This document shows, one piece after another, positions 20,571 to 27,131 of a DNA stretch of 64,000 nucleotides. This stretch comes from Oscillospiraceae bacterium (GTDB lineage: Bacteria; Bacillota; Clostridia; Oscillospirales; SIG627), in assembly GCA_015065325.1 (NCBI GenBank), contig SVQO01000001.1, positions 62,001 to 126,000 on the forward strand, given 5' to 3'. A program made the position numbers and the translations under genes. Positions within the stretch are counted from its first letter, which is position 1. Each line of letters opens with the position of its first letter. The notes below the pieces were generated by a model. That model made no database searches and was not told the DNA's origin. It worked only from the letters and a program-made list of their open reading frames with translations.

Positions 20571-20599
20571 TTGACACTCCAAGTGCTTTGTGGTAAAAT
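20571..20599 (+). promoter_or_regulatory. Promoter of the five-gene sugar operon
   Basis: Consensus TTGACA (20571-20576), 17-base spacer, TAAAAT (20594-20599) with TGG before it (extended -10). No obvious operator or CRE box was recognised around it. Confidence 0.88.
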
Positions 20600-20663
20600 T
20601 ATGTACGGAATATGTTGGATTTTTTCCGCAAAAACAGAGTTTTTTTCGAAGGAGAGAAACAAA

Positions 20664-22076
20664 ATGAATTTACTGGGAATCGACGTAGGTACCACCTCTC
20701 TGAAAGCAGTCTGCTTTGACGAGAAGGGCACCTGCCTTGCCGAAACCAATATCGACTATACCCTGGATACCCACGGAGATCTGGTGGAATTCGATGCCAC
20801 CGAGTACGTCCGCATCGCAAAAGAGGCCATCGCCAAGATCGAGGAGACGGTCAAGATCGACGCCATCTCCATCGACACCCAGGGCGAGACCCTGATTCTG
20901 ACCGACGCTGAAGGGACTCCCACCATGCCCGCCATCGTATGGCTGGACAACCGCGCCGTAAAGGAAGCAGAAGAGATCGAGGCACATTTCGGCGGCGAGA
21001 CCATTTACAACGTGACCGGTCAGGCAGAGACCACCGGCGGTTGGCCCGCCTGCAAGCTTCTCTGGGTACGGAGAAACCTGCCCGAGGTATGGGCAAAGAC
21101 CAAAAAAGTATTTATGCTGGAGGATTGGCTGCTTTGGGCACTTTCCGGTGAATTCGTAACCGAGCCCACCATTCAGTCTTCCACCATTTACCTTGACATC
21201 GTGAAAAAAGATTGGTGGCAGGAAATGCTGGATTTCATCGGCGTTGACCGTGCAATGCTTCCCGCCATCGTTCCTTCTGCGACCAAGGTCGGCACCTTCG
21301 GTGATATTTCCATCGTTACCGGTGCTCTGGACCAGATCGCAGGCGCCGTCGGCGTTGGCGTGGTGGATGAAAACATCGTCAGCGAAATGACCGGTACCAT
21401 TATGGCAATTTGTGTGGTCACCGATTCCATTCCTCCCTACGATCCCGCTTCCAAGATCCCCTGCCATCTGCACGCCATCGGAGACAAGTACGTTTCCCTC
21501 CTGTGGAGCTCTACCGCAGGAATGGCTCTGAAATGGTTCCGCAACAATTTTGCCTCCGAGCTTTCCTTCAAGGAGCTTGACGAAGAAGCGGCAAAGGCGG
21601 GTCCCGGCGCAGAAGGTCTTGCCTTCCTGCCTCACCTGTGCGGATCTACCATGCCTGTTTACAACCCCGACGCCAGAGGTGCCTTCTGGGGTATGACCCT
21701 GGCACACGGCAAGGGGCACTTTGCCCGCGCCATTTTGGAGTCCGTTGCCTTCACCCTTAAGGATGACCTGGAGTGTATCGGCGCCGAAGCAGACGAGATC
21801 CGCATTACCGGCGGCGGCGCAACCAGTCCTCTCTGGGCACAGATCAAGGCAGACGTTACCGGTCTGAACCTTTCCACCCTGCAGGAAAAGGAATCTGCCT
21901 GTCTGGGTACCGCCATTATGGCAGGCGTTGGCTGCGGCGTTTATTCCTCCATCGAGGAGGCTTGCCAAGGCATCATCAAAACCAAAAAGACCTATTCCCC
22001 CCAAGGCGTGGATTATTCCGCCGCCTATCGCAAGTACAAAAAGCTGGATCAGCTTTTGAATATTTCGGAGGTTTAA
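20664..22076 (+). CDS. FGGY-family carbohydrate kinase (xylulokinase-like)
   Basis: A 470-residue sugar kinase of the FGGY family. The N-terminal phosphate-binding strand is LLGIDVGTTSLKAVCFDEKG. ISIDTQGETLILTD and PAIVWLDNRA follow, then the putative catalytic aspartate in GALDQIAGAVGVG, and the C-terminal nucleotide site RITGGGATSPLWAQIKAD. ATG at 20664 has AAGGAG at proper distance; the longer in-frame reading begins inside the promoter region and is rejected. It leads an operon with two sugar isomerase-like genes, a TIM-like gene and yjbQ. The substrate is unknown; FGGY members phosphorylate ketoses, polyols and related compounds. Confidence 0.93.
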   Translation: MNLLGIDVGTTSLKAVCFDEKGTCLAETNIDYTLDTHGDLVEFDATEYVRIAKEAIAKIEETVKIDAISIDTQGETLILTDAEGTPTMPAIVWLDNRAVKEAEEIEAHFGGETIYNVTGQAETTGGWPACKLLWVRRNLPEVWAKTKKVFMLEDWLLWALSGEFVTEPTIQSSTIYLDIVKKDWWQEMLDFIGVDRAMLPAIVPSATKVGTFGDISIVTGALDQIAGAVGVGVVDENIVSEMTGTIMAICVVTDSIPPYDPASKIPCHLHAIGDKYVSLLWSSTAGMALKWFRNNFASELSFKELDEEAAKAGPGAEGLAFLPHLCGSTMPVYNPDARGAFWGMTLAHGKGHFARAILESVAFTLKDDLECIGAEADEIRITGGGATSPLWAQIKADVTGLNLSTLQEKESACLGTAIMAGVGCGVYSSIEEACQGIIKTKKTYSPQGVDYSAAYRKYKKLDQLLNISEV

Positions 22077-22079
22077 ACT

Positions 22080-23429
22080 ATGTCTAAAGTAGCATTTATC
22101 GGCTTCGGAGAAGTCAACACCCCCGTAGAAGTCATTATTTCCCGTACCACGGCAGCTGCCGAGGCACTGGAAAAAGAGGGGCTTGATCTCGTCAAGGTCA
22201 TTCCCGTTGCCGACGATTACGAGGAAGTGCAAATCAAGGGCGCCATCGAAACCCTTTCCAAGGAGCATTACGATGCAGTGGTTCTTTGCGTCGGTGGCTG
22301 GATCCCCACCCACGCAGTGGTAAAGATCGCCGAGCACTACCGTCATCTTCCCATGGTCCTTTGGGGACTTTGCGGCTGGATGGAGGACGGTAGAATCGTC
22401 ACCACCGCTGACCAGGCAGGTACCACGGGTCTCCGTGCCGCACTGGAGGATCTCGGCTTCACCTTTACCTATATTTACGATATGATCGGCAAGCCCTCCA
22501 ATTCCAAGCGCGTTGCCGATTACTGCAAGGCAGCCATTGCCGCCCGCACTCTGCGCCATCAGAAGGCAGGTATGGCAGGCTACCGCGATATGAACCTTTA
22601 CGGCACCCTGTACGACGGCGCTTCCCTGAAAAAGGTCATCGGTCCCGAGATCGAAACCTTTGAAATGCTGGACATGCAGCAGAGATTTGAGAAGCTGGAC
22701 GAAAAGGAAATCATGGACGTTGTGGAAAACCGCATCAAGAAGTGGACCTTCGTTTCTCCCTGCAGTGACGAGCCTATGAAGACCGCCGCCGCATATTACC
22801 TGACCGTAAAGCAGATCGCCGAGGAAAGAGACTATAAGGCGATCTCCCTGAAGGATGTAGACGGTATGAAGAAGTTTATGGGCTTCCCCCCCGCTCCCGT
22901 ATTTATGCTTTTGGCAGAGGACGGCTACCTGACCGTTCCCGAGAACGACTCTCTGGGCTGTATCACTTTGATGATGATGAAGGAGCTGGTAGGCGGTACT
23001 CCCTTCTATCTGGAATTCTACGAATTCTTTGAGGACGGCGTTTTGGCAGGTGTTCCCGACTACGTACCTTCTCAGGTCGTGGACGGTGAGGTTACCGTAA
23101 TGCCCGCCGCCTTCGGTCTGCTCAACCAGGGCATTCTGAATATCTCCAAGGTAAAAACCGGCGAACTTACCATGAGCCGTCTGGTTTACAAGAACGGCAA
23201 ATATATGATGCACATCGTTCACGGCAACGGTGTCACCCCTCCCAAGTGGGAGGAATACGGTTGGGCTCAGCCCGCTCCTCAGCTTCCCTCCCTCAAGATC
23301 GAGATGGAAAATGTGGACGATTTTGCTCAGCACGTTGCTTGCCAACACTACGTGATCACCTATGGTGATAACCGTGCTCAGATCAGAAATATCTGTTCAA
23401 TTTTAGGAATCGAGGTGTATGAATCTTGA
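22080..23429 (+). CDS. L-fucose/L-arabinose isomerase-fold protein
   Basis: A 449-residue protein of the L-fucose/arabinose isomerase superfamily. It has an N-terminal Rossmann-like part (VAFIGFGEVNTPVEV, DAVVLCVGGWIPTHAVVKIA, VLWGLCGW), a middle domain, and a C-terminal metal-site domain with PENDSLGCITLMMMKELVGG and later HIVHGNGVTPPKWEEYGW. Superfamily members interconvert aldoses and ketoses with Mn2+. It starts three bases after the kinase stop, using GGAGG in the kinase's last codons. It is shorter and quite diverged from FucI (about 590), so substrate transfer is unsafe. Confidence 0.85.
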   Translation: MSKVAFIGFGEVNTPVEVIISRTTAAAEALEKEGLDLVKVIPVADDYEEVQIKGAIETLSKEHYDAVVLCVGGWIPTHAVVKIAEHYRHLPMVLWGLCGWMEDGRIVTTADQAGTTGLRAALEDLGFTFTYIYDMIGKPSNSKRVADYCKAAIAARTLRHQKAGMAGYRDMNLYGTLYDGASLKKVIGPEIETFEMLDMQQRFEKLDEKEIMDVVENRIKKWTFVSPCSDEPMKTAAAYYLTVKQIAEERDYKAISLKDVDGMKKFMGFPPAPVFMLLAEDGYLTVPENDSLGCITLMMMKELVGGTPFYLEFYEFFEDGVLAGVPDYVPSQVVDGEVTVMPAAFGLLNQGILNISKVKTGELTMSRLVYKNGKYMMHIVHGNGVTPPKWEEYGWAQPAPQLPSLKIEMENVDDFAQHVACQHYVITYGDNRAQIRNICSILGIEVYES

Positions 23430-24022
23430 AGAAAGAAGCATTGATCGCCGCACAGAACGCTTTCGGCATTGAAGCGACTGAAATCAACCGTGCCAAGGAA
23501 GTTATGGATTGGGACGCATTTGCAAAGGCAGTTGAGGCACTGGCTAAGGCAGAACGCATCGGCACCGCAGGCTGCGGACACTCCGGCATCTGCTGCACCC
23601 ACTTTGCACATTCTCTGTGCTGCGTAGAGCGCCCTGCTCGCTTTATCTCCCCCGCAGAAGCCGTACACGGCGCTATGGGCTTCATCCAGAAGGGTGACGT
23701 TATGGTGCTTGCTTCCCGCGGCGGCAAAACTGCCGAGCTGATCCCCATTATGAACATTGCCCGCACCAAGGGCGCCACCATCATCTCCGTAACCGAGAAA
23801 ATGGACTCTCCCCTTGCACAGGGCTCTGACATTGTAATTCCTATGAAGGTGGAGCTGGAAACCGATAAGTACAACTCTCAGTCCACCTCCAGCTTCGTTG
23901 CTCTTGCATCCGTATTCGATGCACTGCAGACCGCCCTCATCGAGGAAACCGGCTTTGTCAACGAGCAGTTTGCCCTCACCCACCCCGGCGGAGCCGTAGG
24001 CGAGCGCTTGAACAAGAAATAA
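23426..24022 (+). CDS. SIS-domain phosphosugar isomerase
   Basis: A 198-residue single SIS-domain protein like the isomerase half of arabinose-5-phosphate isomerase (KdsD/GutQ) but without the C-terminal CBS pair. Key segments are RIGTAGCGHSGICCTHFAHS (phosphosugar-binding Ser region), GAMGFIQKGDVMVLASRGGKTAELI, and the C-terminal THPGGAVGERL shared with KdsD. The only suitable start is TTG at 23426, which overlaps the TGA stop of the isomerase gene. AGGTG lies about ten bases before. It probably converts an aldose phosphate and a ketose phosphate into each other. Confidence 0.88.
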   Translation: MKKEALIAAQNAFGIEATEINRAKEVMDWDAFAKAVEALAKAERIGTAGCGHSGICCTHFAHSLCCVERPARFISPAEAVHGAMGFIQKGDVMVLASRGGKTAELIPIMNIARTKGATIISVTEKMDSPLAQGSDIVIPMKVELETDKYNSQSTSSFVALASVFDALQTALIEETGFVNEQFALTHPGGAVGERLNKK

Positions 24023-24039
24023 TTGGAAGGAGAAAACCA

Positions 24040-24750
24040 ATGATTAAAAACATTACCATTAAGGCACCCTTCTTCGAAATCGGTCCCAAGAACTATCTTT
24101 GGGGCGACGACGTGGTAGAGCTTGCCAAGGTTGCAGATGCCGCCAGCAAAAAGTACAATGTTGACATCATCTTCACCACCCCCATCGTTGAGATCCGCAG
24201 AGTAAAGGAAGCAACGGAGAAAATCCACGTTTTCGCACCTCATATGGATTCTCTCACCCCCGGCAGAGGTCTGGCAGACATTCTTCCCGAGAGCCTGGTG
24301 GCTGCAGGGGCAGAGGGCGTAATGCTGAACCACTGCGAAAAGCCCGTTACCGTAGCTGAGCTCAAGGCTGCCATCAAGCGCGCCGATGAAGTCGGTCTGG
24401 CTACTATCGTTTGTGCAGACTCCTGCGCAGAGGCAGCTGCCATCGCACACCTGGAGCCCAACATCATCGTTGCAGAGCCCACCGAGCTGATCGGCACCGG
24501 CAAAGCAAGCGACGAGGAGTACGTTGAAGCTTCCATCCGCGCCGTCAAGGACGTAAACCCCGACATTCTGGTTCTTCAGGGTGCAGGCATTAAGTGCTAT
24601 GACGACGTTTACCGCAACATTTACGCAGGCGCAGAAGCAACCGGCTCTTCCTCCGGTATCGTGGGTCTCCCCACTCCCGAGGCAAGATATCAGATGGTTG
24701 ACGATATGATCCGCGCAGTCCGCGAAGCCTGGGACGCAAGACAGGCATAA
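24040..24750 (+). CDS. Triose-phosphate-isomerase-like protein (archaeal-type length)
   Basis: A 236-residue TIM-barrel protein close in length to archaeal TpiA. It retains the catalytic His context as LNHCEKP (canonical LNHSE) and the catalytic Glu loop as AEPTELIGTG (canonical EPPELIGTG). The N-terminal N-x-K motif is changed: the best alignment gives GPKNYL, keeping Lys but with Gly for Asn. The phosphate-binding end reads ATGSSSGIVGLPTPE. These differences and the operon context argue for a pathway enzyme acting on a larger sugar phosphate (compare TIM homologues acting on tetrulose phosphates in erythritol catabolism), not the glycolytic enzyme. A ribosome site (AAGGAG) lies eight bases upstream. 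Confidence 0.85.
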   Translation: MIKNITIKAPFFEIGPKNYLWGDDVVELAKVADAASKKYNVDIIFTTPIVEIRRVKEATEKIHVFAPHMDSLTPGRGLADILPESLVAAGAEGVMLNHCEKPVTVAELKAAIKRADEVGLATIVCADSCAEAAAIAHLEPNIIVAEPTELIGTGKASDEEYVEASIRAVKDVNPDILVLQGAGIKCYDDVYRNIYAGAEATGSSSGIVGLPTPEARYQMVDDMIRAVREAWDARQA

Positions 24751-24786
24751 CACAGTTTAATTTTTATTCTTAGGAGGAATAATATA

Positions 24787-25407
24787 ATGGAATTCAAAGT
24801 AGTACAAAAAGAGATTCAATTGCAGTCCAGAGGATGGATCCCCACCTTCCACGACATTTCCATCGACGTTCACAAGATCGTTGAGGAATCCGGCGTGAAG
24901 AACGGTACCGTAGCTGTTGTTTCTCACCACACCACCTGCTCCGTAATGATCCAGGAGTGCTCCCACGACTTCGATACCTTTGACCTGGAGTTCCTGCAGC
25001 ACGACCTGCTCGACATCATGAGAAAGATGATCCCCGACTTTGCTGAGGAGCATCAGTACCGTCACCCCGGTCCTGTACACGCTCAGTTCGGCAGATACGT
25101 AAACGAGCCCGGCAACTTCACCTCTATGAATACCGACGGTCACCTCCGCTCCGTATTCTTTGGCAGAAGTGAAACCATCACCATCAAGGACGGCGTTCTT
25201 GACCTTGGTGAGTTTGCTCACATCTACTTCATCGACTGGGATCACGTTCGTGCTCGTCCCCGTCAGTGCAACGTTACCATTATGGGTACCACTGAGGACG
25301 TTGGATGCCGCAAGTACAACAACGGCGAGATTGTTAACACCCTTCGTAAGTTCCCCGAGGAAGAAAAGACCTATATGGAGCAGTACGACGAGTGGAAGAA
25401 GAGATAA
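24787..25407 (+). CDS. yjbQ: YjbQ-family (UPF0047) protein, extended form
   Basis: A 206-residue member of the YjbQ/UPF0047 family. Family features are VVSHHTTCSVMIQE (canonical HTSAgl.inE), NTDGHLRSVFFG (canonical HAHLraSLlG) and DLGEFAHIYFIDWDH. It is about 65 residues longer than E. coli YjbQ, with an insert before the metal-site region (RHPGPVHAQFGRYV) and a charged C-terminus. YjbQ proteins show a weak secondary thiamine phosphate synthase activity, but their real role is unclear. Placement as last gene of a sugar operon suggests a phosphosugar substrate. TAGGAGGA lies eight bases before the ATG. Confidence 0.88.
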   Translation: MEFKVVQKEIQLQSRGWIPTFHDISIDVHKIVEESGVKNGTVAVVSHHTTCSVMIQECSHDFDTFDLEFLQHDLLDIMRKMIPDFAEEHQYRHPGPVHAQFGRYVNEPGNFTSMNTDGHLRSVFFGRSETITIKDGVLDLGEFAHIYFIDWDHVRARPRQCNVTIMGTTEDVGCRKYNNGEIVNTLRKFPEEEKTYMEQYDEWKKR

Positions 25408-25423
25408 CCCATCTCAAAAGCGC

Positions 25424-25456
25424 AAAGAAGATCGGCTTTCGCCGATCTTCTTTTTT
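25424..25456 (+). terminator. Terminator of the sugar operon
   Basis: AAAGAAGATCGGC, TTTC loop, GCCGATCTTC, then TTTTTT. Confidence 0.95.
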
Positions 25457-25622: not shown

Positions 25623-27131
25623 TTAAAGAGCCTCGGTGTTGATGTAGTTCAGGTAATCCTGCAGAGCCTTACGGGCTGCGGTATATCTGGACTCGTAGGT
25701 GGATACGAAGGTATCGTATGCAGCATCAGAACCGGGAGCCTCATTGTTGGGAGAACCAACTTCGTAGAACAGCTTCAGGAGCTTACCGAAGTCGTAACCA
25801 ACAACGGGATCGTAGATCTTGTTCTCCATTGCGTACTCTACCATCTTAGCAGACTCAACGTCACGGATGGACTGCTTGAGAATAACCTGATCGTAGAATG
25901 CGGGAGTCAGGATACGCATGGACTGGTAGCAGAATGCTTCCAGGAAGTAAGCTGCCTGCTCACGGCCGGAAGAGAATCCGTTGGTCTCCCAGTCTTCACA
26001 GTTGTCGGTGGTGGTGGGGATTGCGAAGCAACCGAGCTGTGCGTAGGAAACGCCGTTGTAGTACTTTTCCTGCTCAGCGTTCAGCTTAGGCAGGGGAAGT
26101 ACACCCAGAGAAATGGTAGAGGAAGCAGCGTTCAGAATGGTACCGGTGTTACAAGAGAAGAAGGTGGACAGACCGGAACGGAAGAGAGAACCGGCGTCGT
26201 CAACCAGACGCTTGTCAGAGGTCAGCAGAGGACGAAGCTTTTCCCAGATGGTGAGAAGCTCAGCCTTGGGCTGTGCGGGGATCTCGTACTCTCCGGAGGA
26301 GGAGATACGGGACAGGGTCTCGCCACAACCGTTTACGTGTACCCAGTTGTTAAATCTCTCGCCGATGTAGCCAAAACGGTCCTTACGGGCAGTCATGACA
26401 CCGTCGTTGTCCAGGTCTTTTGCGGTGTTAACCATGAGCTCATACATAAGATCGATGGTCCACTCGCCCTTTTCTACTACGTCGTAGAGGTTGAGTTCGG
26501 GATCGTACTCTTCAACCCAGTCCTTGTTAAAGAACAGGATCCAAGCAGCTCTGTCGTCCAGAGTAGTACCGTCGCCGTTAACGAAGAAGGTCTTGCCGCC
26601 TACGTTCATACCCTGCATACCGTTGGGATCCCACCAAGCCTTGTTCAGGTTGATAACACTGCTCAGTTCGTTCAGGTCAGCAACCAGGTTTGCAGCTGCA
26701 AGGGATCTCAGGTTCATTGCGGTACCCAAGAGGAAGTCGGCAACATACTCACCTGCGATCAAAGGTTCACGTACTGCACTTGCGGGATTGGACTGACGGT
26801 CCTCAACGATGGTGCACTGGTAATCCTTCTCAAGCTGGGCGTTACGAGCATATACTGCGTCGTTGATCTTGTCGCCGTTGATGTTTTCGGCATAAACTTC
26901 GTTTACGGAAAGGTGAGAAGCACTGGTGTTTCTAACCACGAAACGGAATTCATGACCGTTGAGTTTTTTGATCTTAGCGTCGTATTTGCTGTTTGCATCC
27001 TTGGAATCGCTTCCAACGATCAAAGACTGCTGCTGGGTCTGCTTGGGTTCTTCCTTTGCACAGGAAACCAAGAAGAGAGAGCAGAGCATAACGAGCGCCA
27101 AAACCAAAGAAAGGATTCTTTTCGCGTTCAT
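25623..27131 (-). CDS. Extracellular solute-binding lipoprotein (ABC sugar-type)
   Basis: A 502-residue family 1-like solute-binding protein. The signal peptide ends in lipobox LVSC with Cys24 as lipid anchor. A Gln/Lys-rich linker is followed by the binding fold, with LFFNKDWVEEYDPELNLYDVVEKGEWTIDLMYEL typical of sugar-binding proteins in gut Clostridia (quoted segments LFFNKDWVEEYDP and GEWTIDLMYEL). No permease or ATPase genes are next to it, so it is an orphan. It might serve the sugar operon that converges on it or use the orphan ATPase at 12.9 kb. The ligand is unknown, but the size and aromatic content suit a sugar or oligosaccharide. Confidence 0.93.
   Translation of the reverse strand: MNAKRILSLVLALVMLCSLFLVSCAKEEPKQTQQQSLIVGSDSKDANSKYDAKIKKLNGHEFRFVVRNTSASHLSVNEVYAENINGDKINDAVYARNAQLEKDYQCTIVEDRQSNPASAVREPLIAGEYVADFLLGTAMNLRSLAAANLVADLNELSSVINLNKAWWDPNGMQGMNVGGKTFFVNGDGTTLDDRAAWILFFNKDWVEEYDPELNLYDVVEKGEWTIDLMYELMVNTAKDLDNDGVMTARKDRFGYIGERFNNWVHVNGCGETLSRISSSGEYEIPAQPKAELLTIWEKLRPLLTSDKRLVDDAGSLFRSGLSTFFSCNTGTILNAASSTISLGVLPLPKLNAEQEKYYNGVSYAQLGCFAIPTTTDNCEDWETNGFSSGREQAAYFLEAFCYQSMRILTPAFYDQVILKQSIRDVESAKMVEYAMENKIYDPVVGYDFGKLLKLFYEVGSPNNEAPGSDAAYDTFVSTYESRYTAARKALQDYLNYINTEAL

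Follow-up and report, generated by a model that had tools for sequence, protein, structure and literature searches.

What does an operon do that joins an FGGY carbohydrate kinase, an enzyme of the arabinose/fucose-isomerase fold, a single-domain SIS protein, a homologue of triosephosphate isomerase (TIM) and a YjbQ/UPF0047 protein? We address this question for five genes, termed K, F, S, T and Y in operon order, in a 64,000-nucleotide stretch of DNA (the window) from an Oscillospiraceae bacterium of the SIG627 lineage (contig SVQO01000001.1, positions 62,001 to 126,000). By relating these genes to their counterparts in close and distant genomes, we found them to form two modules, in which S-T-Y is the core and K-F is a separable, interchangeable input. 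That this modular system is real is almost certain.

The evidence comes first from co-occurrence among relatives. In 98 such genomes, S was present in 12, and T together with strong matches to Y in the same 12 plus G013 (Fisher p about 1e-14, kinship ignored). Genome G032 retains all three genes on three different contigs, and their link is therefore more than operon inheritance. F, counted at 50% identity or above, was found in 13 of the 98, eight of these with S (p 3e-6, kinship again ignored). Within the genus, all six genomes (G000-G005, the window's own being G000) carry the S-T-Y block: G003 has K-F-S-T-Y, both G001 and G002 have F-S-T-Y (no K was called in the former, and in the latter the block lies at the end of a contig), and G004 and G005 have an intact K-S-T-Y without F, which rules out a fixed five-gene unit. 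Conversely, K-F pairs without S-T-Y were seen in four genomes (G007, G012, G020 and G021). Since S-T-Y with K and/or F is syntenic across the genus and appears again in other families with the genes in a different order, the arrangement is not due to chance. Rare co-occurrence of the five families had been named in the initial annotation as the finding that would refute it; S, T and Y travel together in the relatives, as do T and Y in 398 genomes of the phylum, so this part of the proposal holds, whereas the idea of one set has to give way to separable K-F and S-T-Y modules.

A scan of GTDB for Y extended this picture to 80 loci, mostly metagenome-assembled genomes from ruminant and deer gut, of which the 48 with at least 4 kb on either side of Y were used for neighbourhood counts. 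S lay near Y in 40 of the 48, T in 38, and S and/or T in 43. F or NagA/NagB-like genes were present in 23 and both together in one only, so they look like alternative inputs. RPE genes neighbour 14 loci, and genes of the FSA-type aldolase family, which acts on 2-ketohexose 6-phosphates, adjoin F in three (L035, L036, L099). In four loci (L034, L052, L063, L133) a diverged NagA-like deacetylase and a NagB-like protein with no Pfam match lie beside S-T-Y or K-F and may form an unusual route for amino sugars. Several S-T-Y or T-Y loci (L078, L094, L124, L159) also have genes for a 2-oxoacid/acetoin-dehydrogenase-like complex nearby.

Beyond the relatives, T and Y constitute a conserved pair, to which S is a regular partner in the group of relatives. 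Of the 398 genomes, sampled evenly across the phylum, 12 have T and precisely these 12 have Y (p 4e-23), the two genes being adjacent and no more than about 75 bases apart. They also stand side by side on plasmids of Shinella, Lacticaseibacillus paracasei, Enterococcus faecium and Enterococcus raffinosus, in settings that differ (one T-Y locus, L162, was left out of the gene-context comparison). In Shinella the neighbours are an SDR, an AP_endonuc_2-type (epimerase-like) barrel and an FGGY kinase; in Lactobacillales and some other Firmicutes they are a class II aldolase, mostly with phosphotransferase system (PTS) components IIA/IIB/IIC; and in E. raffinosus the aldolase has no adjoining PTS. 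Two genomes (G106, G255) combine T-Y with a fructose-type PTS, HxlB (208 bits against a cut-off of 160), RPE and DeoR, and a true HxlB in such PTS operons suggests that a 3-ketohexose 6-phosphate is an intermediate. One typical E. faecium plasmid was opened, the clinical p5_126kb (L163, 16032-34493); it carries PTS IIA/IIC/IIB-YjbQ-rpe-hxlB and no T, and about 150 Enterococcus plasmid records hold YjbQ matches of the same identity. A diverged T2-Y2 pair accompanies an AraA-like isomerase, an FGGY kinase and an amidohydrolase in G009, G013 and G063, and its loci (L139, 4445-9690; L140, 6027-10988; L141, 7011-11954) represent a parallel system.

To discern what the core may do, its proteins were compared with characterised families. 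S has a single SIS domain, closest to KdsD/GutQ and the single-domain SIS protein 3fxa, and scores 113 bits against the GutQ model (cut-off 481) and 62 bits against HxlB (cut-off 160). Of the KdsD catalytic residues, which we take to be Lys59, Glu111, Glu152 and His193, two of four are replaced in S (Lys59 by His52, Glu111 by Lys101), and Glu145 and His186 are retained. T scores 176 bits against the NCBIfam subfamily PRK04302 (cut-off 132) and 84, below the cut-off of 130.6, against the TIGR00419 equivalog. The TIM residues Lys17, His98 and Glu146 are retained in every T covering these positions (63-64 aligned), and the substrate-binding Asn two residues before the Lys is Gly15 in 63 of 63 T proteins of the S-T-Y group, with Gly also in the Shinella T. 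By contrast, T from loci with a class II aldolase keep the Asn (9 of 9). When T was aligned to bacterial TpiA, the catalytic Asn-x-Lys fell at another position; the archaeal-TIM alignment was preferred, supported by the Asn-Pro-Lys of the aldolase-linked T. A canonical TpiA is encoded elsewhere in the genome, ruling out T as the organism's sole TIM. Because T is altered at this Asn and S at half of the KdsD residues, their family names do not give their substrates, and the changes point to a substrate that is neither triose phosphate nor arabinose 5-phosphate.

The YjbQ/UPF0047 family has, to our knowledge, many solved structures and no settled function. Y scores 69.7 bits against TIGR00149 (cut-off 67.75), and its model (pLDDT 79.7, low in an insertion) matches the YjbQ structure 1vmj by Foldseek (E 1e-14, TMt 0.89). 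The linked Y proteins are a subfamily, marked by an insertion bearing PGxxH and by HTTCS where Escherichia coli YjbQ has HTSAS. About 40 positions are invariant among 41 Y proteins, with His and Glu residues in common with the E. coli protein.

As to the input, K contains both FGGY_N and FGGY_C and reaches no equivalog cut-off (XylB model 317 bits against 380); sister species hold copies 77-78% identical. A K homologue (71-72% identical) is also found in two sister species in a paralogous sugar cluster (L046, 2693-5570; L047, 3761-8525) where its partners are another FucI-fold protein (22-23%) and two xylose-isomerase-like barrels. F only just exceeds the cut-off for Fucose_iso_C, and its AlphaFold model (pLDDT 89.8) shows the predicted three-domain fold of the L-arabinose/L-fucose isomerase superfamily. 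The best Foldseek matches are L-arabinose isomerases (TM about 0.80, 11-16% identity), and since they extend over the whole length, the fold assignment stands despite the low identity of about 15%. E288, D290 and H423 are invariant among 25 relatives; E288 and H423 align with the conserved Glu and C-terminal His of AraA, and the other two AraA ligands align unclearly. F is probably an aldose-ketose isomerase. It was rejected as the sulfoquinovose isomerase SftI (NF048012, 56.6 bits against a cut-off of 700). Overall, profile matches and structure comparison agree with the families originally assigned to all five proteins (FGGY, FucI-fold, SIS, TIM and YjbQ).

Where the pathway leads depends on what the cell can do with its product. 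Family searches of the genome assembly, which is 89% complete, found no gene for transketolase or transaldolase; its sole Transket_pyr match is a 620-residue protein that reads as DXS, and one RPE gene is present. No transaldolase-family match occurred in any of the six genomes of the genus, whose pentose phosphate metabolism looks unusual as judged by gene content. Failure to find these enzymes in an assembly of this completeness is not proof, and it disfavours a tetrose or pentose phosphate as end product. The sugar route first envisaged is thus upheld in one respect, as co-occurrence argues for a sugar isomerase, a kinase and phosphosugar isomerases acting together, but its proposed tetrose or pentose phosphate endpoint is weakened, and the names of T and S do not fix the substrates.

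The substrate of the core is likely to be a ketose phosphate supplied by the input genes. Further, we favour, as a possibility short of probable, that the operon breaks down an unusual sugar by a carbonyl relay ending in a 2-ketohexose 6-phosphate. F would convert a free aldose to the ketose, and K would phosphorylate it, most likely to the ketose 1-phosphate. T would then shift the carbonyl by one carbon, away from the end that bears the phosphomethylene, Y would move it one further position, mid-chain (the least certain step), and S, like 6-phospho-3-hexuloisomerase, would bring it to C2; the result would be a 2-ketohexose 6-phosphate, for instance fructose 6-phosphate. Neither a dedicated aldolase nor transketolase or transaldolase would be needed for this product to enter glycolysis. 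In TIM chemistry the carbonyl that moves lies next to a phosphomethylene, and HxlB-type SIS enzymes move one between C3 and C2. As the conversion of a ketohexose 1-phosphate to a 2-ketohexose 6-phosphate takes three moves, one TIM-like, one in the middle and one HxlB-like, these would suit T, Y and S in turn, and a C4 or C5 sugar, taking two moves, would leave Y without a job. The FSA-type aldolase and RPE neighbours fit the proposed ketose 6-phosphate. This particular order of shifts is itself doubtful, and slightly more so is the broader notion that the Y subfamily are enzymes of an undescribed reaction, working beside a TIM homologue and, with an SIS isomerase, taking ketose 1-phosphates stepwise to ketose 6-phosphates, as an aldolase-free entry to glycolysis whose parts are spread between Clostridia, Lactobacillales and Alphaproteobacteria.

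The sugar probably comes from a glycoside of plant or microbial origin that is split within the cell. In G001-G003 the operon is followed by two extra genes, one for a ceramidase-like protein (PF04734, slightly under cut-off) and one for a 676-residue protein that has no Pfam hit and, judging by its NE and SEW motifs, resembles a clan-A glycoside hydrolase. Both lack an obvious signal peptide, suggesting that a glycoside is opened intracellularly. Ceramidase-like (PF04734) proteins also recur beside K-F and S-T-Y genes elsewhere (L031, 12704-16243; L038, L039, L063).

Several points weigh against the relay. The reaction proposed for Y is a guess chosen to fit the scheme; the NagA/NagB-like genes of one operon group would already yield a ketose 6-phosphate, making T needless; the enterococcal PTS-Y-rpe-hxlB operon lacks T; K-F pairs without S-T-Y imply that K's product can have other uses; and transketolase could be missing from the assembly through its incompleteness. 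Y could be a new metal-dependent aldolase or lyase, cleaving the ketose 1-phosphate made by F and K into dihydroxyacetone phosphate and an aldehyde, with T and S processing the products. In its favour, F-K-Y-T parallels fucI-fucK-fucA with the place of the aldolase left vacant, Y is rich in invariant residues (His, Asp, Glu and Arg), and transketolase and transaldolase went undetected in the genome. We consider this unlikely, as nine T-Y loci already hold a class II aldolase and would not need Y for cleavage, and as T in the window lacks the Asn of true TIM in a genome that has a canonical TpiA. Y may instead be a non-catalytic or housekeeping partner (a mutarotase, an intermediate carrier or a stabiliser of T), leaving F, K, S and T as the only pathway enzymes. 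No YjbQ protein has a settled activity, and mutarotases are common in sugar operons (E. coli fucU adjoins fucIK); nevertheless, the invariant positions of Y and the His and Glu residues common with E. coli YjbQ look catalytic, and Y occurs without T in the enterococcal operon, which makes such a role improbable.

In a tetrose route like erythritol breakdown, a tetrose would be converted to erythrulose phosphate, with T in the place of EryH/LerI and S or Y in that of EryI/DerI, yielding erythrose 4-phosphate. A TIM homologue of tetritol catabolism does convert L-erythrulose 1-phosphate to D-erythrulose 4-phosphate (PMC11508834, PMC10733421), and multicopy E. coli yjbQ rescues a pdxB mutant, which concerns a C4-phosphate step (PMC7954711). 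The Shinella operon, with its dehydrogenase, epimerase-like barrel, T, Y and FGGY kinase, resembles the ery operon, and RPE genes adjoin many S-T-Y loci. Nevertheless, erythrose 4-phosphate would have no evident outlet, given that the search of this genome found neither transketolase nor transaldolase and that of the six in the genus no transaldolase, aldotetroses are rare in nature, and a C4 sugar needs two isomerases, not three; we judge this route less likely again than cleavage by Y. Least probable is a pentose route, in which F and K would act on a rare pentose, S would be of the arabinose-5-phosphate type and feed ribulose 5-phosphate and RPE, and T and Y would be auxiliary. It would suit the likeness of S to KdsD/GutQ and 3fxa and the frequency of RPE as a neighbour, but the substitutions for Lys59 and Glu111 in S, the strict T-Y link, which it leaves unexplained, and again the undetected transketolase speak against it.

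Open reading frame calls on the window and motif checks confirmed the layout from which the system was first proposed, with a promoter, five intact and tightly packed genes and a single strong terminator between 20571 and 25456 (Table 1). The K-F gap is 3 bases, F and S overlap, and the S-T and T-Y gaps are 17 and 36 bases. As had also been claimed, family searches found no transporter, aldolase or regulator among the five genes. A lipoprotein gene with no Pfam match lies convergent with the operon on the minus strand (25623-27131); it has a 48% relative at the same place in G004 and is possibly a solute-binding protein.

Table 1. Features of the operon, in window coordinates
Feature	Position	Strand	Remarks
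Promoter, sigma-70-like TTGACA-17-TAAAAT	20571..20599	+	TG before second hexamer; 11/12 consensus; from consensus match alone
K, FGGY carbohydrate kinase, XylB-like	20664..22076	+	ribosome site AGGAGA at 20650
F, arabinose/fucose-isomerase-fold enzyme, new subfamily	22080..23429	+	Pfam and predicted fold
S, single-domain SIS sugar-phosphate isomerase, KdsD/GutQ-like	23426..24022	+	TTG start; overlaps F by 4 bases
T, archaeal-type triosephosphate-isomerase homologue	24040..24750	+	TIM Asn11 replaced by Gly15
Y, YjbQ/UPF0047 protein	24787..25407	+	subfamily with insertion bearing PGxxH
Intrinsic terminator	25424..25453	+	hairpin, 13-pair stem, then T tail

These findings place YjbQ in a metabolic context where its role becomes testable, and the strict T-Y link, seen in sugar operons of several kinds, reduces the problem to a sugar phosphate intermediate and two small soluble proteins. 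Further, what is annotated as triose-phosphate isomerase in operons of this type may have other substrates, and the sugar route may be common in Clostridia of the herbivore gut.

In line with the initial annotation, which knew of no pathway with this exact set, our literature search on YjbQ/UPF0047 and related sugar-enzyme combinations found no description of the five families together; apiose, considered as a substrate, gave no link there. Four known systems share parts of the set. Among named models, SftI of the sulfoquinovose transaldolase pathway (SftI, SftT) comes closest to F, and in some loci F has FSA/transaldolase-family genes as neighbours, but the window operon has a kinase, no sulfonate-metabolism gene is annotated in the loci examined, and the low SftI score of F led us to reject sulfoquinovose catabolism. 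With the ribulose monophosphate enzymes (HxlA/HxlB) the common ground is the SIS family of S, and the HxlB-type SIS protein and RPE-family epimerase that accompany T-Y or Y in PTS operons; hexulose-6-phosphate synthase, however, is absent from these operons, and S falls well below the HxlB cut-off. The L-fucose/D-arabinose pathway (FucI, FucK, FucA) likewise unites a fucose/arabinose-isomerase fold with an FGGY kinase, whereas the window operon lacks a FucA aldolase, has an F only about 15% identical to solved isomerases, and adds T, S and Y. The erythritol/threitol pathway (EryABCHI; LerI, DerI) also has an FGGY kinase (EryA) and a TIM homologue among three consecutive phosphosugar isomerases, and the Shinella T-Y operon comes especially close to it. 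None of the five operon genes belongs to the EryB dehydrogenase, EryC-type or RpiB-type EryI families, and no transketolase or transaldolase outlet was found in the genome; in their stead, the operon brings an AraA/FucI-fold isomerase, an SIS protein and YjbQ.

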